Assembly (NCBI RefSeq): GCF_002834235.1
Contig: NZ_NNBY01000030.1
Span: 62,001-126,000, forward strand
DNA length: 64,000 bases
Reading direction: 5' to 3'
From: Ruminococcus bromii
GTDB taxonomy: Bacteria > Bacillota > Clostridia > Oscillospirales > Acutalibacteraceae
Below are positions 17,081 through 26,329 of the stretch, piece after piece. Under the pieces are notes generated by a model. That model saw only the letters and a program-made list of their open reading frames with translations, made no database searches and was not told the origin of the DNA. Each line of letters starts with the position of its first letter. The stretch's first letter is position 1. Position numbers and translations under genes: made by a program.

Positions 17081-18901
17081 TTATTTCTTACGGAATGCCT
17101 GTTTCATACGCTGTTCTTTTGAAAGAATACGCTTACGCATACGGATATTTTCGGGAGTAACCTCAACAAGCTCATCATCAGCGATGAATTCAAGGCACTG
17201 TTCAAGCGACATAACAGTCGGAGGTGTAAGCTTGAGGGCATCATCAGAACCCGATGCACGGGTGTTTGTGATGTGCTTTTTCTTGCAGACATTAACTGTG
17301 ATATCCTCAGACTTAGGACTTGCACCTACAATCATACCCTCGTAAACAGGAACACCGGGTCCGATAAAGAGTCTGCCTCTTTCCTGAGCGGCATAAAGAC
17401 CGTAGGTTACAGTTTCGCCTGTTTCAAAAGCGATAAGTGAACCCTGATGGCGGGTTACGATTTCACCTTTGTATGGCTCATAACCGTCAAATACATGGTT
17501 CATAATACCGTTACCGTTTGTATCTGTAAGGAATTCGGGGCGATAACCCATAAGACCTCTTGACGGGATTCTGAATTCAATGTGAGTAACACCGCCTTCA
17601 CGAGTACCCATATTGATAAGCTCACCTTTTCTTGAACCGAGCTTTTCCATTACAGGACCGACATATGTGTCGGGAACTTCGATGATAAGAAACTCCATAG
17701 GCTCATGAAGCTTGCCATCAATCATCTTTGTAATAACCTGCGGACGGGAAACCTGAAATTCATAATTCTGACGGCGCATCGTTTCGATAAGAATTGAAAG
17801 GTGGAGTTCACCTCTGCCCGATACCTTGAATGTATCGGCGCTGTCTGTTTCTTCAACACGAAGTGCAACATTTGTTTCAATTTCCTTGAAAAGTCTGTCA
17901 CGGAGGTTACGAGAGGTTACATACTTACCCTCTCTGCCTGCAAACGGTGAGTTGTTTACGATAAAGTTCATTGAAACCGTAGGCTCGTCAATTTTTACAA
18001 ACGGAAGCGGCTCAACGCAATCGTTTGAACAGATTGTTTCACCGATGTTGATATCCTGAACACCGCTTACGCAAACGATGTCACCAACTGTTGCAGTGTC
18101 ACATTCAACTCTTTTAAGTCCTTCAAACTGATAGAGCTTTGCAATTCTTACATTCTGAGTGGTACCGTCTGTGTGACAGAGAACGGCAGCCTCTCCGTTC
18201 TTTGCAGTACCTCTTTCAACACGGCCTACACCGATTCTGCCGACAAACTTATCAGAGTCAATGTTTGAAATAAGGAGCTGGAGTCCTCCGTTCATATCGC
18301 CCTGAGGAGCAGGGATTTCTTTTACGATTGCGTCAAAGAGGGGTTTCATATCTGTACCGGGTTCATGATAATCCTCTGATGCATAGCCGTCACGGGCAGA
18401 CGCATAAATTACAGGGAATTCAAGCTGATCTTCGTCGGCACCGAGTTCGATAAAGAGGTCGAGAACCTCGTCAACAACCTCCTCGGGTCTTGCACCGGGA
18501 CGGTCAATTTTGTTAAGAACAACAAGCGGCTTTTTGCCGAGGCCGAGTGCCTTTTTAAGAACAAATCTTGTCTGTGGCATACAACCCTCAAATGCGTCAA
18601 CAAGCAATACAACACCGTCAACCATCTGGAGAATACGCTCAACCTCACCGCCGAAATCGGCATGACCGGGGGTGTCAACAATGTTAATTTTGATGCCGTT
18701 GTACATTACGGCTGTCGGCTTTGAAAGGATTGTGATACCTCTTTCACGCTCAAGGTCATTAGAGTCCATTACTCTTTCTTCTACATTTTCATTTGCTCTG
18801 AAAACACCGCTCTGCTTCAAAAGCTGGTCAACCAGAGTAGTTTTGCCGTGGTCAACATGGGCGATAATTGCAATATTTCTTAAATTCTCTCTTACATCCA
18901 T
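17081..18901 (-). CDS. typA: Ribosome-associated GTPase TypA/BipA
   Basis: 606-residue translational GTPase that assists 50S subunit assembly and stress adaptation. The start MDVRENLRNIAI follows an AGGT site; an upstream frame extension (MILAKRGIF) is not supported. G1 is AHVDHGKTT, G2 ERERGITI, G3 DTPGHADFGGEV, and G4 NKIDRP, followed by the EF-G-like beta barrel and the C-terminal domain (RPEFLTDTNGNG, YEPYKGEI). Length and motifs are normal for the family. Confidence 0.97.
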   Translation of the reverse strand: MDVRENLRNIAIIAHVDHGKTTLVDQLLKQSGVFRANENVEERVMDSNDLERERGITILSKPTAVMYNGIKINIVDTPGHADFGGEVERILQMVDGVVLLVDAFEGCMPQTRFVLKKALGLGKKPLVVLNKIDRPGARPEEVVDEVLDLFIELGADEDQLEFPVIYASARDGYASEDYHEPGTDMKPLFDAIVKEIPAPQGDMNGGLQLLISNIDSDKFVGRIGVGRVERGTAKNGEAAVLCHTDGTTQNVRIAKLYQFEGLKRVECDTATVGDIVCVSGVQDINIGETICSNDCVEPLPFVKIDEPTVSMNFIVNNSPFAGREGKYVTSRNLRDRLFKEIETNVALRVEETDSADTFKVSGRGELHLSILIETMRRQNYEFQVSRPQVITKMIDGKLHEPMEFLIIEVPDTYVGPVMEKLGSRKGELINMGTREGGVTHIEFRIPSRGLMGYRPEFLTDTNGNGIMNHVFDGYEPYKGEIVTRHQGSLIAFETGETVTYGLYAAQERGRLFIGPGVPVYEGMIVGASPKSEDITVNVCKKKHITNTRASGSDDALKLTPPTVMSLEQCLEFIADDELVEVTPENIRMRKRILSKEQRMKQAFRKK

Positions 18902-19108
18902 AAAAATACCTCGTTTTGCTAAAATCACTTAAATCTTATTGCATACATCAAGCATTATAACACTATGAAAGCTAAAATTCAATTTATATTTTTCATCACC
19001 TTTTATGCTAATATCCGACACTTTTTGAACATTTTTCCGATAGAAAACCGCAAAAAATATTTTTTAGTGAAAAAATAACGATTTTTGCTCATTTCGTGTG
19101 ATTTTTTC

Positions 19109-19137
19109 TTTACAATATCTCAAGATTGTTATATAAT
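19109..19137 (+). promoter_or_regulatory. Promoter of the acn-icd-rex operon
   Basis: TTTACA (19109-19114) and TATAAT (19132-19137) with 17-bp spacing, about 70 bp before the acn start. The rest of the 305-bp gap to typA is AT-rich, with no reading frame I would call a gene. Confidence 0.75.
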
Positions 19138-19143
19138 TAACAT
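19126..19143. promoter_or_regulatory. Probable Rex operator
   Basis: TTGTTATATAATTAACAT matches the clostridial Rex consensus TTGTTAA-N4-TTAACAA (recalled) at all but two fixed positions and spans the -10 box of the operon that encodes Rex. Binding here would block RNA polymerase. Confidence 0.6.
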
Positions 19144-19207
19144 AGTGTTTTGCATTTTTTCGCAGGACCTGAATTATGATAGGCATTAATTTTTAGGAGG
19201 TAATATT

Positions 19208-21139
19208 ATGGGCTACACGATTGCGCAGAAAATCATCAAGAATCATCTTGTCTGCGGAGAAATGACCGTTGGCAGTGATATCGGTCTTAAAATCGACCAG
19301 ACTCTTACTCAGGATGCAACAGGCACTATGGCTTATATCGAATATGAGGCTATGGGCATTCCGAGAGTAAAAACAGAAAAAAGCGTTGCTTACATTGACC
19401 ACAACACACTTCAGACAGGTTTTGAAAACGCCGATGACCACAGATTTATTCAGTCTGTTTGTAAAAAACACGGTATCTATTTTTCAAGACCCGGCAACGG
19501 CATTTGTCACCAGGTTCACCTTGAAAGATTCGGTAAACCGGGAAAGACTTTAATCGGTTCTGACAGCCATACCCCGACAGGCGGCGGTATCGGTATGCTC
19601 GCAATCGGTGCAGGCGGTCTTGATGTTGCTGTTGCAATGGGCGGCGGCGCATACTATATTACTATGCCGAAAATGGTAAGAGTTAATCTTACGGGCAAAC
19701 TCAGTCCGTGGGTTTCTGCAAAAGATATTATTCTCGCAGTTCTTCGTGTTATGAGCGTTAAGGGCGGCGTTGGCAAGATTGTTGAGTACGGGGGAGAAGG
19801 TGTTGCCACACTTACGGTTCCCGAAAGAGCAACAATCACAAATATGGGTGCAGAGCTTGGTGCTACAACTTCTGTATTCCCGTCTGATGAAACAACAAGA
19901 AAGTTCCTCAAGGCTCAGGGCCGTGAGGAAGATTATACAGAACTCAAAGCTGATGATGACGCTGTTTATGATGAGGTTATCGAAATTAACCTTTCAGAGC
20001 TTGAACCACTTGCAGCCTGTCCGCATTCACCCGACAATGTTAAGCCAATCAAAGAGCTTGAGGGCAAGAAGATTGATCAGGTTTGTATCGGTTCATGTAC
20101 AAACTCAAGCTACCTTGACCTTATGAGAGTTGCTCACATTCTCAAGGGCAAAAAGGTTGCAGACAATGTATCGCTTGCAATTGCTCCGGGTTCAAAGCAG
20201 GTATTTAATATGCTCGCTCTCAACGGCGCACTCGGCGACATGATTGCGGCAGGTGCAAGAATCCTTGAAAGTGCCTGCGGTCCGTGTATCGGTATGGGAC
20301 AGTCACCTAACAGTGGCGGTATTTCTCTTAGAACATTCAACCGTAACTTTGAAGGCAGAAGCGGAACGGCAGACGGTCAGATTTATCTTGTATCTCCCGA
20401 AACTGCAGCAGTTTCAGCAATTAACGGTGTATTCACAGACCCGAGATGTCTTGGTGCGGCTGCTGAGATTGAAATGCCCGAAAAATTCCTCATCAATGAC
20501 AATATGGTTATTGATCCCGCTCCTGTTGAAGAAATGGACAGCGTAGAAATTCTCCGTGGTCCTAACATCAAGAGCTATCCCGAAACTCATCCGCTCACAG
20601 ATTCTATCGAAGCATCGTGTTCACTCAAGGTCGGCGACAACATTACAACCGACCATATTATGCCTGCAGGTGCAAAGATTCTTCCGCTCCGCTCAAATAT
20701 TCCGAAAATTTCAGAGCATTGCTTTACAGTATGCGACAAGGAATTCCCAACCCGTGCAAAGACACTCGGCAAGAGCATTATTGTCGGCGGTGAAAACTAC
20801 GGTCAGGGTTCATCCCGTGAGCATGCGGCTCTCGCTCCCCTTTTCCTCGGTGTTAAGGCTGTACTCGTAAAGAGCTTTGCAAGAATTCACAAGAGCAACC
20901 TTATTAATGCAGGAATTCTTCCGCTTACATTTGTAAACGCAGAAGATTATGATAAAATCAAGCTTGGCGATATGCTTGAGCTTCCGAATGTTAAGGACGA
21001 AATTGCAAACGGCAAGCAGGTTACTGTTGTAAACAAGACAACAGGCGACACAATTGTTGCTGACTGTGAGCTTTCAGACAGAACAAGAAACATTATCATT
21101 GCAGGCGGTCTGCTTGACTACACAAAGGAGAACAGCTGA
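19208..21139 (+). CDS. acn: Aconitate hydratase
   Basis: 643-residue [4Fe-4S] enzyme that isomerises citrate to isocitrate. Cluster ligands are visible as Cys297 (IGSCTNSS), Cys357 and Cys360 ([10 protein letters not shown]); substrate contacts lie in [18 protein letters not shown] and [13 protein letters not shown] (C-terminal swivel domain). The length fits the short, Aquifex-type monomeric aconitases rather than the 890-residue AcnA. AGGAGG precedes the ATG by 8 bp. It is the first gene of an operon with icd and rex and supplies the citrate-to-2-oxoglutarate arm used for glutamate synthesis. Confidence 0.96.
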
Positions 21140-21140
21140 T

Positions 21141-22349
21141 ATGGAAAAAATTAAAATGGTCACACCTCTCGTAGAGATGGACGGTGACGAGATGACAAGA
21201 GTCATCTGGAAACAGATTAAAGACATTCTCATCACACCTTACGTTGACCTCAAAACAGAATATTATGACCTCGGTCTTGAGCACAGAAACGAAACAGACG
21301 ATCAGGTTACAGTTGACAGCGCCAACGCAACAAAGAAATACGGTGTTGCCGTTAAGTGTGCCACAATCACACCCAATGCCGCAAGAATGACAGAGTACAA
21401 CCTCAAGAGTATGTGGAAGTCACCTAACGGTACGATTCGTGCTATCCTTGACGGTACGGTATTCAGAAGCCCGATTCTTGTTAAGGGTATTGTTCCCTAC
21501 ATTCCTACATGGAAAAAGCCAATCTGCATTGCCCGTCACGCATACGGTGATGTTTATAAGAACACAGAGATGAAGGTTGAGGCAGGAAGCAAGGCAGAGC
21601 TTTGCGTTACAAAGCCTGACGGTACCGAGGAAAGAAGCACAATCTTTGACTTTAAGACTGACGGTATTATTCAGGGTATGCACAACATTGACAAGAGTAT
21701 CTCATCATTTGCCCGTTCATGCTTTAACTATGCACTTGATCAGAAGCTTGATGTTTGGTTTGCTACAAAGGATACAATCAGCAAAATTTATGACCACAGA
21801 TTCAAGGACATCTTCAGTGAAATCTTTGAGAATGAGTACAAAGAGAAGTTTGAGAACGCAGGTATTACATATTTCTACACACTTATTGATGACGCTGTTG
21901 CAAGAGTTATCAGAAGTGAAGGCGGTTATATGTGGGCTTGTAAGAACTATGACGGTGATGTTATGAGTGATATGATTGCAACTGCATTCGGTTCGCTCGC
22001 AATGATGACAAGCGTGCTTGTTTCTCCCGACGGCATCTATGAATACGAGGCTGCTCACGGCACAGTTCAGCGCCACTACTACAAGTATCTCAAGGGCGAA
22101 GAAACTTCCACAAACTCTGTTGCAACATTGTTTGCATGGACAGGCGCTCTCCGCAAAAGAGGCGAGCTTGACGGTCTTGACGATCTTATGAAGTTTGCAG
22201 ACAAGCTTGAGGCCGCAACAATCAAGACAATTGAGGACGGCGTTATGACAGGCGATCTCTACGCTATCTCGACACTTGAGAACAAAAAGAAAGTAAACAC
22301 AGAAGAATTTCTCAAGGCTATTGACGAGCGCCTTGCAGCATCTCTCTGA
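21141..22349 (+). CDS. icd: Isocitrate dehydrogenase (NADP-type)
   Basis: 402-residue enzyme that oxidatively decarboxylates isocitrate to 2-oxoglutarate. The start [18 protein letters not shown] has AAGGAG within the last codons of acn; the two genes are 1 bp apart. Substrate-binding TKKYG and [12 protein letters not shown], the metal-binding IDDAVAR and YDGDVMSD, and the nucleotide loop [11 protein letters not shown] agree with the homodimeric, eukaryote-like NADP-dependent subfamily rather than the E. coli type. Cofactor choice is inferred from the subfamily. Confidence 0.95.
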
Positions 22350-22377
22350 TTTTAAAGTTAAAGGAGCATAGTGAGTA

Positions 22378-23010
22378 ATGTCTAAGAATGACAGTATTTC
22401 AATGTCGGTTATCAGGCGTTTGCCAAGATATTACCGCTTTTTATCAGAACTGAATGACCAGAACATTGACAAAATTTCTTCAACTAAGCTTGCACAAATT
22501 ATGAATGTGACCGCCTCACAGGTAAGACAGGATCTTAACTGCTTCGGCGGATTCGGTCAGCAGGGTTACGGTTACAGCGTAAGTCAGCTGAAAGAGGAAA
22601 TCAAGAACATTTTGGGACTTAACAACGATTACAAGGCCATTCTTATCGGTGCCGGTAATCTTGGTAAGGCCGTTGCAATGCATATGAATTTTGAAAAACT
22701 CGGTTTTGAGCTTATCGCTTGTTTTGACAGCAACGAACAAAAAGTCGGTTCAAAGCTCAACGGAATTACAGTTAAAAACGAAAGTGAACTCGACGATTTT
22801 TGTAATAAAAATCATATTGACACAGCGTTTTTGTGCATTCCCCGTGTTTGTGTTGAAAATGTTCTCGATAAGCTATATTCACACGGAATCAAGAATTACT
22901 GGAATTTCAGCCACTATGATATAAATGCTCGTTATAATGATACTATGGTAGAGAATGTTCATCTCAGCGACAGCCTTATGACTCTCTGCTACAGAATGAA
23001 CAACAACTGA
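22378..23010 (+). CDS. rex: Redox-sensing transcriptional repressor Rex
   Basis: 210-residue repressor that leaves DNA when NADH rises. The N-terminal winged helix (about 1-80) includes VIRRLPRYYRFL and VTASQVRQDLNCFGGFG; the Rossmann domain begins at ILIGAGNLGKAV (about 88-99) and continues with ACFDSNEQKVG; the C-terminal VHLSDSLMTLCYRMN is the domain-swapped helix. An AAAGGAG site lies 11 bp upstream. It closes the acn-icd operon, whose promoter carries a probable Rex site, implying autoregulation. Confidence 0.96.
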   Translation: MSKNDSISMSVIRRLPRYYRFLSELNDQNIDKISSTKLAQIMNVTASQVRQDLNCFGGFGQQGYGYSVSQLKEEIKNILGLNNDYKAILIGAGNLGKAVAMHMNFEKLGFELIACFDSNEQKVGSKLNGITVKNESELDDFCNKNHIDTAFLCIPRVCVENVLDKLYSHGIKNYWNFSHYDINARYNDTMVENVHLSDSLMTLCYRMNNN

Positions 23011-23020
23011 TAAACCAATG

Positions 23021-23056
23021 ACTCCCCGACAGTTTTATAAGCTGTCGGGGAGTTTT
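23021..23056 (+). terminator. Terminator of acn-icd-rex
   Basis: Twelve-base arms ACTCCCCGACAG and CTGTCGGGGAGT, 9-nt loop, TTTT tail, directly after rex. Confidence 0.92.
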
Positions 23057-23091
23057 CCGTTACAAAGCAATAATAACCTTTTTTAGCGATT

Positions 23092-23120
23092 AAAAGGGCT
23101 GACCGTTTAAGGTCAGCCCT
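23092..23120 (-). terminator. Terminator of the pullulanase operon
   Basis: Ten-base arms AGGGCTGACC and GGTCAGCCCT; the minus strand continues TTTTAATC. It is 30 bp after the pullulanase stop and may also act on the plus strand (CTCTTTTGC). Confidence 0.8.
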
Positions 23121-23149
23121 CTTTTGCAATTTGTGTTTGTGATTTAAGA

Positions 23150-26100
23150 TTAACCGAGTGTAACCTGCTCAGCGATTGGAGCGTTGGGGTTAGTGTCAGG
23201 GTTATCTGTGTAGAATGTAAGGTATGTACCGCCCATAACAGCAGAGTCATCAATTACAATCCACATTTCATTATCTACAAAGCCCTTGTAGTCAATTGTT
23301 TGGTTAGTAGCGTTATCGGATACAATTACATTGTATGTACCTGCTCCCTTATATGTGAAGCTGTAATCAAACCAACCGTTTTCACCTTCAGTCATAGGAT
23401 CACCCGGCCACTCTGACATAAAGTTGCCTGAGTCTTTGCCCTTGAGGTCTGAACCCCATATCCAGAGATATGGTGTCCATGTATCTGAACCGTTGTGCTT
23501 TACATGAAGTTTGATGTCAAGGCTTGATGCGATGTAGTAGTAGTTCACCTCAGCCTCACCGTAAGGAATTAAGCCCGACTGATTTTCCGGCATTCTGTTC
23601 GGATCAACAGCGTAGCCAACAACCTTGAATGCAGTTGACTCATATGTGCTGCCTGCTCTGCCTGCGAATACGATTGAATCGGTGAGCTTCTGCTGTTTTC
23701 CGTCAGCGTCTGTGTAGTAGTAGTTTACTGTTACTTTACCGGAAGATACAGGAATTCCAACAACATACTTCATTATCATTGTTGAATCTTCAACGTTGAA
23801 AGTACCGTCATAGTTTAGGTCAAGAACTGATTCATCAACTGTAGGAGTTTCAAGCTTTACAATATACTTCTGAAGAAGTGTAGCGTCAATTACATTAACT
23901 TCACCGTCACCGTTGAAGTCAGCGTTCTTGAGTGATTCAGGAATGTAGTCTGTGTAGTAGTATGTAACCTCCTGCATATCGGAAGTATATTTGCCTTCTG
24001 CATTTCCGCCAATACGACTTACGATGTATGTATCGGGAACAACTGCACTCGGAACTGTTACATAACCTGAGCCTACAGGACCCTGAAGGATTACAGAATC
24101 TTCAAGCTTTTCGCCTGTTGCTTCGTAAACATAGTTAACCTTAACCTTACCGTTTGAAGATTTGATGCCTGCTGACTCATAGCCTGCCTTGTCAACAGCT
24201 ACGATAGCCGAACGAGCAGGAACTGTGAATGTTGAGCCTGTCACCTCGCCGAGTGAGTCAAGACCTGCTGTTTCACCGTTAGCGATAACAACCCAATCTG
24301 TTACGGATGTGTCCGAAAGGGTTACATCTGCAGCTGTGGTTGCATTGTTATAAATAACAGCCATCTTGTTCCATTCACCCTCAACATCGTTCTGAATTGT
24401 GAATGAAATCTGATTTGTTGAAGCAGAAACCTTTTTTGTGAATGTGTATTTGTCAGCATATGAATTATCCATAGCTGTGAGAGGCGAGAATGCTGACTTA
24501 ATCTGCATCATACCCTTGTAGTAAGAAACTACATCGGCATAGTCAACAACATTCTGCCATTTAATCATATTAAGGTCAGCTGCCGACTTGTAGCTGTTTG
24601 TGTCACCGTCTTTTGAACGAGCCATTTCTTCACCGGCAAGTGTGAATGAAATACCCTGTGATGTGTAGATAATTGCACTTGCAAGCCTGTTCATCTTAAC
24701 AGCCTCGGAATTTCTCTCTCCGTAGTCTGCCAGACCTGTTGACGCAATAATCTGATCGTAAAGTGTTGCGTTATCGTGACACGCATCATAGGTTACGCAC
24801 TGTGAAGGAGCCTGAGCCTTCCACTTGTATGTACCTGAGCTGTTGGCACGAACACCGTAGCTTACACCCTTTGCGGATGACTTTGAGCCCTGTATAAAAC
24901 CAACATCGCTGATGTCCATTGCACTTCCCTTTATACCGTCACGGATGCCGTCATTGAAGATAGCGATTCTGTCGCTGAGTCTTGACGCATTAGCCTGTGT
25001 TGCAGGATAGAATTTTGTGCCTGAGCAAGTGTTAGTCGGGTGGTAGGAGTCACCGCCTGCCCAGCCTTCACCCCACATTGTGATTCGTGGGTCAATTTGG
25101 TCAAGCGCTTCTCTTGCCATATTCATTGTTTCAACATCCATAAGACCCATAAGGTCAAAACGGAAGCCGTCAACATGGTATTCGTTTACCCAATACTTGA
25201 GTGAATCAATAACATACTGTCTGTACATTGCACGCTCTGTTGCACCTTCGTTGCCGCAACCCGAACCGTTTGAGAATGTACCTGTTGTTTTCATTCTGTA
25301 GTAGTAGTTAGGAACTGTGTACTGGAAGCATGAATCAGTTGAATAAGTATGGTTGTAAACAACATCCATTACAACAGAAATGCCGGCGTCATGGAGAGCC
25401 TTGATCATTTCCTTGCATTCTTTGATTCTTACTTTACCGTCATACGGATTTGAAGAATATGAGCCCTCCGGAACATTGTAGTTCTGTGGATCATAACCCC
25501 AGTTAAACTGAGAATCATCGCCTGCCTCATTTACTGACTGGAAGTCATAGAACGGGTTAAGCTGTACTGTTGTTACACCGAGTTCCTTGAGGTAATCAAT
25601 ACAGGTTGAAACCTTGCCCTCGCCGTTAAGAGTTGTACCGTTTTCTGTGAAAGCAAGGTACTTGCCTCTGTTAGCATCGCTTACGCCCGAGGCCTTGTCA
25701 TAAGAAAAGTCTTTGATATGGAGTTCCCATACTGATGACTTTGTTGATTTGTCAAGAAGAACATGGTTATCGTTTGACCAGCCCTCAGGATCTGTCTCGT
25801 CAAGATCAACAATCATTGAGCGCTTGCCGTTTACGCCTGTTGCCGTTGAGTATACATCCTGTGTTTCATAAGTCTTTGTTGCATCTGAACCGATGTGTGT
25901 TGTGTCTGTTGTTGTGACTGAGTATGTGTAATAATAATCCTTCCATTCGCCGACGAGTGTAATCGTCCAAACACCGTTCCACTCACCGTCAACGAGCATT
26001 TTTTCAAGTGTGTAGCTGGCAACTTTAGATGCACCCTGCTCGTCATCCGAACCTTTTGTAAAGATATTGAGCTTAACACCGGTTGCTGTCGGTGACCAAA

Positions 26101-26329
26101 CCTTGAATGTTGTAGCATCTTTTGTGTAAGTAACACCAAGATCATCGCCGGAATAAGCATACTGAGCGTCAATATCTTCAGCAGCCTTTGTGTAAGAATT
26201 GTCTCTTGCGTAGTCGCTTGAAACTGCCGAACTGTCATCGGCTGTTGCGGCAAAGCTTGATACAACCGCTGTTGAGGCAAGCATGCACGCTGCAAGAACT
26301 GCAGAAACAATTTTCTTCGTAGTTCTCAT
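23150..26329 (-). CDS. Secreted dockerin-bearing type I pullulanase (GH13)
   Basis: 1059-residue extracellular debranching enzyme cutting alpha-1,6 bonds in amylopectin and pullulan. Layout: signal peptide 1-28; CBM48-like domain about 60-170; GH13 barrel about 200-640 with nucleophile Asp392 (DGFRFDLMG), acid/base Glu421 (TMWGEGWAGG) and Asp519 (CHDN); MucBP-like module about 727-793; dockerin 801-860 with loops DFNGDGEVNVID and DLNYDGTFNVED; second MucBP-like module about 865-933; and a CBM26-like starch-binding module about 938-1045. The dockerin is internal, whereas it is usually terminal. It is the second gene after a related membrane-anchored pullulanase. Confidence 0.93.
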   Translation of the reverse strand: MRTTKKIVSAVLAACMLASTAVVSSFAATADDSSAVSSDYARDNSYTKAAEDIDAQYAYSGDDLGVTYTKDATTFKVWSPTATGVKLNIFTKGSDDEQGASKVASYTLEKMLVDGEWNGVWTITLVGEWKDYYYTYSVTTTDTTHIGSDATKTYETQDVYSTATGVNGKRSMIVDLDETDPEGWSNDNHVLLDKSTKSSVWELHIKDFSYDKASGVSDANRGKYLAFTENGTTLNGEGKVSTCIDYLKELGVTTVQLNPFYDFQSVNEAGDDSQFNWGYDPQNYNVPEGSYSSNPYDGKVRIKECKEMIKALHDAGISVVMDVVYNHTYSTDSCFQYTVPNYYYRMKTTGTFSNGSGCGNEGATERAMYRQYVIDSLKYWVNEYHVDGFRFDLMGLMDVETMNMAREALDQIDPRITMWGEGWAGGDSYHPTNTCSGTKFYPATQANASRLSDRIAIFNDGIRDGIKGSAMDISDVGFIQGSKSSAKGVSYGVRANSSGTYKWKAQAPSQCVTYDACHDNATLYDQIIASTGLADYGERNSEAVKMNRLASAIIYTSQGISFTLAGEEMARSKDGDTNSYKSAADLNMIKWQNVVDYADVVSYYKGMMQIKSAFSPLTAMDNSYADKYTFTKKVSASTNQISFTIQNDVEGEWNKMAVIYNNATTAADVTLSDTSVTDWVVIANGETAGLDSLGEVTGSTFTVPARSAIVAVDKAGYESAGIKSSNGKVKVNYVYEATGEKLEDSVILQGPVGSGYVTVPSAVVPDTYIVSRIGGNAEGKYTSDMQEVTYYYTDYIPESLKNADFNGDGEVNVIDATLLQKYIVKLETPTVDESVLDLNYDGTFNVEDSTMIMKYVVGIPVSSGKVTVNYYYTDADGKQQKLTDSIVFAGRAGSTYESTAFKVVGYAVDPNRMPENQSGLIPYGEAEVNYYYIASSLDIKLHVKHNGSDTWTPYLWIWGSDLKGKDSGNFMSEWPGDPMTEGENGWFDYSFTYKGAGTYNVIVSDNATNQTIDYKGFVDNEMWIVIDDSAVMGGTYLTFYTDNPDTNPNAPIAEQVTLG

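Follow-up and report, generated by a model that had tools for sequence, protein, structure and literature searches.

A predicted Rex operator enclosing the -10 box of the acn-icd-rex operon in Ruminococcus bromii

The window that we analysed, a stretch of 64,000 nucleotides of Ruminococcus bromii DNA, holds a tight plus-strand operon in which acn, icd and rex follow one another in that order. The features on which the argument turns are as follows.

19109..19114, + strand: -35 hexamer TTTACA (promoter scan)
19126..19143, + strand: predicted Rex operator TTGTTATATAATTAACAT (match to the clostridial consensus; conserved against diverged flanks)
19132..19137, + strand: -10 hexamer TATAAT, wholly within the operator (promoter scan)
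19195..19200, + strand: ribosome-binding site of acn, AGGAGG
19208..21139, + strand: acn, aconitate hydratase, 643 aa (NCBIfam NF005558; PF00330, PF00694)
21141..22349, + strand: icd, NADP-dependent isocitrate dehydrogenase, 402 aa (NF006156; start codon at 21141)
22378..23010, + strand: rex, redox-sensing repressor Rex, 210 aa (NF003990; PF06971 and PF02629)
23012..23062, + strand: probable intrinsic terminator, a strong hairpin 3' of rex followed by four T (RNA fold)
23085..23135, + strand: second strong hairpin, between rex and a convergent pullulanase-like gene (RNA fold)

The acn product scores 1005.6 bits against the NCBIfam aconitate hydratase profile NF005558 (cut-off 612) and that of icd 667.8 bits against NF006156 (cut-off 335), the latter scored on 21150-22349, the reference used in the profile scan starting at 21150 and the true ATG lying at 21141. 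The rex product reaches 286.6 bits against NF003990, the profile of the redox-sensing transcriptional repressor Rex (cut-off 233), and combines an N-terminal DNA-binding domain (PF06971, 74.8 bits, cut-off 27) with a nucleotide-binding domain (PF02629, 54.3 bits, cut-off 22.3). Its nearest solved relative is 3wg9 (E 4.9e-62, query residues 1-209 aligned), with which it has the recognition region RQDLN.FGGFGQQGYGY in common, and it is the single Rex of the genome (one match at E <= 0.001). Only 1 bp separates the stop of acn from the ATG of icd, and 28 bp lie between icd and rex, which is preceded by AGGAG. Both hairpins 3' of rex are stable (-28.4 kcal/mol, z -8.95, for the first and -24.4 kcal/mol, z -5.37, for the second), and the terminator scan of the region listed neither. 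From the gaps and the hairpins, we infer that the three genes are probably co-transcribed. The profile matches and the two short gaps bear out the sequence-only reading where it made rex the third gene of an acn-icd operon. It had also held this placement to be unusual, which the comparison does not support: of the 80 named Rex loci most similar to the query, a set that is not a random sample, 38 have the strict acn-icd-rex order, more than have any other arrangement, and the order has been published for Caproicibacterium (PMC9600882). In five other genomes (G010, G024, G028, G030 and G034) neither acn nor rex was found. This co-loss was dropped as evidence; four of the five assemblies are less than 90% complete and, because the genes are neighbours, a single deletion or assembly gap would suffice.

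The best promoter match within 18900-23200 consists of TTTACA at 19109, a spacer of 17 and TATAAT ending at 19137 (11 of 12 positions). A near-consensus Rex operator overlapping the -10 box had been read from the sequence, and the closer comparison upholds it, the 18-bp palindrome enclosing the entire -10 box and TTGTTATATAATTAACAT differing from the clostridial Rex consensus TTGTTAANNNNTTAACAA by 2 mismatches. Taken on its own, in one genome, this operator is within chance and is weak evidence. With up to 3 mismatches, TTGTTAANNNNTTAACAA occurs 9 times in the window for 9.4 expected, the acn operator being the only 2-mismatch match there. The scan of the whole 2.40-Mb genome cuts both ways: the exact TTGTTATATAATTAACAT has its sole copy before acn, but matches to TTGTTAANNNNTTAACAA with up to 2 mismatches number 33 against 54 for the reversed control, i.e. 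no excess. Such counts are what one would expect if the palindrome had arisen by chance in a strong, AT-rich promoter in which selection acts on the -10 box only. What raises the operator above chance is its conservation in relatives.

To assess this conservation we assembled acn upstreams from loci L009-L068 and L100-L179, requiring an acn match from the first 4 residues, at least 60% identity and at least 150 bp upstream; this gave 75 upstreams, 69 of them unique by their last 120 bp, in which 300 bp were examined. The relatives in all these counts are non-independent samples. A Rex-like site with up to 2 mismatches from TTGTKAANNNNTTMACAA is present in 34 of the 69 unique upstreams; 300 permuted palindromes run on the same set gave a mean of 1.9 and none reached 34, the highest scores (26 and 25) belonging to near-copies of the Rex motif. 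By position, the operator lies on the -10 in 20 upstreams, on the -35 in 11 and elsewhere in 8, and 30 have none. In the -35 class, which is found in sister genera, the right half of the operator is TTGACA and stands 17 bp from a -10-like word. Since the operator may sit on the -10, on the -35 or elsewhere, the palindrome is not merely part of the promoter.

In a quick acn tree (21 of its 65 inner branches open), the two branches that hold every upstream of the -10 class comprise 22 rows, and 20 of these carry the operator. Across the 22 rows, mean identity over the 12 operator positions that lie outside the -10 is 0.90, a value which replaces an earlier 0.92 that was biased because its 21 relatives had been hand-picked after the sites were seen. 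The -10 itself averages 0.97 and is flanked by TTGT (0.95-1.00) and AACA (0.82-1.00); identity falls to 0.38 in the 30 columns downstream, 0.58 in the 11 columns to the left and 0.29 further upstream. In the 21 chosen relatives, the first five bases of the -35 hexamer have 0.90-1.00 identity. The conserved -10 could still be taken as a sign that the promoter alone is under selection, as could several relatives that keep a promoter without the palindrome, but the retention of the flanking half-sites against diverged surroundings, the same type of palindrome on the -35 of other genera and the failure of the permuted motifs to reach the observed count make a chance palindrome very unlikely.

Conservation of the site together with the gene order gives a mixed picture, with an operator in 20 of 22 rows of the clade, a site within 2 mismatches in 34 of 69 upstreams overall and no operator in 30 of 69. 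Absence of the palindrome from relatives that share the operon was the result that the sequence-only reading had said would refute it, and part of the genus shows it: acn, an icd-sized gap and rex are retained in G014, G016 and G025, whose acn upstreams (L055, L057 and L058) have a promoter without operator. Inside or near the clade of the window, the operator is lost in L046 and its right half is degraded in L043 and L059. Of five genomes examined from other families of the order in which rex is linked to acn, only G045 comes within 2 mismatches, and the best site in the other four (G042, G047, G056 and G058) has 4; in G057, with rex elsewhere in the genome, the best acn-upstream site has 5. 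Four genomes that lack a close Rex (G046, G052, G053 and G054) have no acn site either, the best having 5-6 mismatches, but with only one of five Rex-linked genomes of other families having the site this contrast is too weak and was dropped. Rex control of the acn operon would then seem to be widespread and not universal, since 30 of 69 acn upstreams, some of them keeping the operon, are without a good site.

Another possibility is that the palindrome is the operator of another regulator, e.g. a CRP/FNR-like or CcpC-like protein; dyads resembling TTGTGA...TCACAA also serve CRP/FNR proteins. The sites found at other genes bear on this. Among Rex-bearing congeners, the motif, allowing up to 1 mismatch, precedes a NuoE-type, hydrogenase-like gene in 7 of 23 (permuted mean 0.1, maximum 7), adhE in 6 of 24 (0.05, maximum 6) and a class II aldolase gene in 5 of 23 (0.1, maximum 3). 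Each control comprised 200 permuted motifs, at least one of which equalled the observed count for NuoE and for adhE; distances run from where the protein match begins, and the counts cover only genomes in which Rex was detected, G059-G062, outside the Rex search, being left out. Hydrogenase and adhE are classical Rex targets. Two genomes without detected rex (G034 and G030, both assemblies less than 90% complete) keep the aldolase site, which fits a different regulator. Against it stand these hydrogenase-like and adhE sites, the presence of rex in the operon itself and the fit of the motif to the clostridial Rex consensus (PMC9600882, PMC8457756), so that a regulator other than Rex is highly improbable.

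In R. bromii itself, the best site in the 320 bp upstream of adhE has 4 mismatches. Tandem sites occur on the same contig 3' of adhE, before a kinase-like gene. Among the matches listed in the own-genome scans, most lie inside genes or before unrelated genes, and we retained as credible candidates just those at acn and aldolase, because both recur in relatives. Citrate synthase was rejected as a further target: none of 20 loci of the genus has a site with up to 2 mismatches in the 420 bp before the Pfam match (partly coding, shorter at three loci, extra copies in G003 and G009 left out).

The arrangement is already known, and we do not describe a new kind of system. In 2022, an acn-GJQ69_04730-icd-rex operon was reported for Caproicibacterium lactatifermentans, with a Rex site (TTGTGAATGGATTGACAA, at -243) predicted ahead of acn, and Rex sites at TCA-cycle genes were likewise predicted for C. 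amylolyticum (PMC9600882). The R. bromii locus matches it in carrying the genes for aconitase, isocitrate dehydrogenase and Rex, in this order and on the same strand, behind a predicted Rex site (19126-19143). It differs in that no extra gene separates acn from icd and in that its site encloses the -10, whereas the right half of the C. lactatifermentans site contains a -35-like TTGACA; in the latter, Rex is predicted to act on reverse beta-oxidation operons as well (PMC9600882). For Rex_2471 of Clostridium thermocellum, DAP-seq revealed binding upstream of the genes for isocitrate dehydrogenase, aldolase and iron-only hydrogenase and of rex, with the same TTGTTAANNNNTTAACAA motif, checked by EMSA (PMC8457756). 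The target types are shared, but icd and rex are tabulated there as separate targets, unlike the R. bromii operon, and 'aconit' is absent from the main text of that paper (PMC8457756). C. pasteurianum has a Rex of the same family encoded elsewhere, upstream of the bcs operon beside butyryl-CoA synthesis genes, and makes glutamate from oxaloacetate via aconitase and isocitrate dehydrogenase (PMC5027557); rex is also beside butyryl-CoA synthesis genes in C. kluyveri and C. acetobutylicum, as cited in PMC9600882.

A further explanation accepts Rex binding but gives it little physiological weight, other signals setting acn-icd-rex expression and Rex acting mainly on hydrogenase, adhE and glycolysis. 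In Caproicibacterium grown on glucose versus lactate, acn and rex transcripts were nearly flat (acn log2 0.31, rex fold change 1.0) and the thl and ldh operons shifted strongly (PMC9600882). The 30 operator-less acn upstreams point the same way, as does G016, which retains the operon but not its operator and has a perfect site preceding adhE. Against this explanation, which we regard as unlikely, stands the fact that in the window's clade the acn promoter has selectively retained its operator.

Our preferred reading remains that Rex, acting on the palindrome of the acn promoter, represses acn-icd-rex until released by NADH, and we give this whole proposal a probability of about 0.86. The observation as a whole is real and well supported, and Rex very probably switches the operon off. 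By analogy with the Rex family, the protein would bind the 18-bp palindrome around the -10 and so block RNA polymerase; with rex as the last gene of the transcript, it would limit its own synthesis along with that of the aconitase and the NADP-dependent isocitrate dehydrogenase encoded before it. A rise in NADH relative to NAD+ would be expected to make Rex leave the operator, so that the operon is transcribed. The comparison with relatives favours the negative autoregulation predicted earlier. An effect on the supply of 2-oxoglutarate or glutamate, which the sequence-only reading had predicted as well, would be a further, hypothetical consequence. That a repressor released by NADH should control an NADPH-making arm runs against intuition and counts against the proposal; NADH-producing genes as Rex targets were likewise called counter-intuitive for C. 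thermocellum (PMC8457756).

More tentatively, and with real doubt, one may see in acn-icd-rex an old self-limiting module of the order, in which the part of the citrate cycle that makes NADPH is gated by an NADH sensor, coupling both nucleotide pools. Its logic may have outlived the position of the operator, re-installed at the -10, at the -35 or immediately behind the promoter according to lineage, and the isocitrate dehydrogenase in its slot may in some have been replaced by another family. The relatives, sorted by where the operator lies (-10, -35 or downstream), would form a natural series for seeing how its position affects repression by one kind of protein. If the proposal is true, the sensor Rex would itself be under a simple negative loop, and gut anaerobes of the Ruminococcus group would have their supply of citrate-cycle products and of NADPH tied to the NADH/NAD+ ratio.

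The gene cluster lies on one strand of the window, and family scans placed each of its three members above the curated cut-off:

19208-21139, + strand: acn, aconitate hydratase
21141-22349, + strand: icd, NADP-dependent isocitrate dehydrogenase
22378-23010, + strand: rex, redox-sensing repressor Rex

The gaps, 1 bp between acn and icd and 28 bp between icd and rex, leave scant space for an internal promoter, and the one-strand cluster proposed by the sequence-only reading holds. A single Rex was found in the source genome. Two strong hairpins follow rex, neither of them listed by the terminator scan; in the first, the stem is followed by just four T. Convergent with rex (23150-26329, - strand) is a gene for a 1059-aa amylase/pullulanase-like protein with CBM48, MucBP, type I dockerin and starch-binding CBM26 domains; amylases with dockerin are typical of starch-degrading Ruminococcus bromii.

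The top promoter match within 18900-23200 is TTTACA-17 bp-TATAAT at 19109-19137 (11/12 positions), and its whole -10 box is wrapped by TTGTTATATAATTAACAT (19126-19143). This putative operator has 2 mismatches to TTGTTAANNNNTTAACAA, the clostridial Rex consensus as quoted in PMC9600882 and PMC8457756; the near-consensus site claimed for the acn promoter is indeed there. The genome scan proposed along with that claim gave counts no higher than chance: 33 matches with up to 2 mismatches in the whole source genome, versus 54 for the reversed pattern. Within the window, matches with up to 3 mismatches numbered 9 (9.4 expected), and with position 5 relaxed to T or G the genome had 60 versus 31. By single-genome counts the operator does not exceed chance, and for this reason a comparison with relatives was undertaken.

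Among 36 genomes of the genus (G000-G035), 28 carry acn and rex on one contig and strand with an icd-sized gap of about 1.2-1.4 kb; the two genes are split over different contigs in 2, rex is undetected beside a present acn in one (G019), and 5 have neither. Outside the genus, acn adjoins rex in 7 of 23 further genomes of the order, one per family, with a gap that is icd-sized or slightly larger (G042, G043, G045, G047, G058) or with the two genes directly side by side (G044, G056). Among named loci, the 80 nearest the query Rex comprise 38 with strict acn-icd-rex order, 4 with a longer acn-icd gap (the acn match being partial in L133), 4 with icd-rex truncated by a contig end, 4 with acn-rex, 3 with a different 1.2-kb gene between acn and rex, one with icd-rex and no preceding acn, one with the three genes dispersed, 2 with acn nearby on the opposite strand, 20 with other neighbours and 3 that are cut. 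The sequence-only reading had regarded rex in such an operon as unusual, which it is not: the arrangement is common among the order's near relatives and already in print for one, Caproicibacterium lactatifermentans, whose acn-GJQ69_04730-icd-rex has a Rex site predicted ahead of acn (PMC9600882). At the three loci with another 1.2-kb gene, and at L174 among the 20, the gene preceding rex belongs to another isocitrate/isopropylmalate dehydrogenase family than the window's icd, below the curated cut-offs of all 16 listed models, and the enzyme in the icd slot may possibly have been replaced:

L129, 4761-5933: different-family dehydrogenase gene before rex
L152, 4796-5962: the same
L164, 2195-3358: the same
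L174, 4758-5984: the same

At another locus (L161, between 5663 and 6001) acn-icd is inverted and points away from rex; the gap separating them holds a Rex-like site, closer to rex.

The operator itself is enriched in these relatives. Of 69 unique 300-bp regions upstream of acn, 34 match TTGTKAANNNNTTMACAA with at most 2 mismatches and 10 with at most 1; 300 permuted palindromes averaged 1.9 (maximum 26) and 0.16 (maximum 7), respectively, the two top-scoring ones being near-copies of the Rex motif. Sorted by position, with 3 mismatches tolerated if a promoter element lay inside the operator, the site falls at the -10 in 20 regions, at the -35 in 11 and elsewhere in 8, and is absent from 30; in 6 of the 8 it sits right behind a TATAAT (L062, L063, L065, L125, L126, L130). 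A quickly built acn tree accommodates the -10 class with 3 changes, versus 17.7 under shuffling, and the -35 class with 6, versus 10.4, a clustering that near-copies favour. All -10 rows fall on two branches with 22 rows in total, of which L043 and L046 lack the operator and the other 20 carry it. Mean identity across these 22 is 0.90 for the operator without its -10 part (12 columns) and 0.97 for the -10, versus 0.38 in the 30 columns downstream, 0.58 in the 11 to the left and 0.29 further upstream; an earlier alignment of 21 hand-picked rows gave 0.92 for the operator columns. Counting against the regulatory reading, some relatives keep the operon and lack the operator, for example at the acn promoters L055, L057 and L058 (G014, G016, G025), and in L043 and L059 the right half of the operator has decayed. 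In other families, among the five genomes with linked rex that were checked, G045 alone has a site with up to 2 mismatches, the best in the remaining four having 4, versus 5-6 in four genomes without a close Rex and 5 in G057, where rex lies elsewhere. Because this contrast is weak, our confidence that Rex controls acn-icd-rex by repression at the -10-enclosing operator was lowered slightly, from 0.87 to 0.86; such control is very likely.

Sites with up to 1 mismatch also occur, in Rex-bearing genomes of the genus, upstream of a NuoE-type gene (7/23; permuted motifs average 0.1, maximum 7), adhE (6/24; 0.05, maximum 6) and class II fructose-bisphosphate aldolase (5/23; 0.1, maximum 3), single permutations having equalled the first two counts. 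The source genome has the aldolase site, at -126, an adhE without an upstream Rex site and zero matches to the NuoE query; within the genus, no citrate synthase locus (0/20) has an upstream site with up to 2 mismatches. In G002 a NuoF-type gene comes after the NuoE-type one, and we infer the pair to be part of an NADH-linked hydrogenase. Since G016 has a perfect site before adhE and lacks the operator at acn, Rex seems to be active in that genome but not at acn. Other Rex-like palindromes were seen: a pair, TTGTTAAACTTTTAACTA and TTGTGAAATTTTTAACAT, spaced 5 bp, in the source genome (L242, contig G000:C33, 4605-4645) between adhE upstream and a kinase-like gene downstream; five in 235 bp, two of them perfect, in G002 (L243, contig C75, 2239-2472), with no overlapping 80-aa ORF and about 500 bp ahead of a small ORF; and sites kept at the aldolase genes L324 (G034) and L330 (G030), incomplete assemblies in which rex is undetected.

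DAP-seq in Clostridium thermocellum found Rex bound upstream of isocitrate dehydrogenase, aldolase and hydrogenase genes and of rex (PMC8457756); TCA-cycle Rex sites are predicted in Caproicibacterium amylolyticum (PMC9600882). A result against the regulatory reading comes from the latter paper: in Caproicibacterium rex was unchanged and acn little changed between glucose and lactate. We found no published report of a -10-enclosing operator in the genus, in literature searches that covered subscription papers in part. The modest novelty is that the position of the operator on the promoter shifts between lineages.

The regulatory part of the sequence-only reading is probably right. To judge from the Rex family, Rex sitting on the -10 of the acn promoter would block the polymerase and NADH would release it; the freed promoter would then yield aconitase, NADP-isocitrate dehydrogenase and additional Rex, which would close the loop. 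An NADH-released repressor on an oxidative, NADPH-forming arm poses the same puzzle as that stated for glycolysis in PMC8457756. The aconitase-isocitrate dehydrogenase branch yields glutamate in Clostridium pasteurianum extracts according to PMC5027557, in whose examined text an acn-icd-rex operon was not found; the link to glutamate proposed by the sequence-only reading is hence biochemically plausible.
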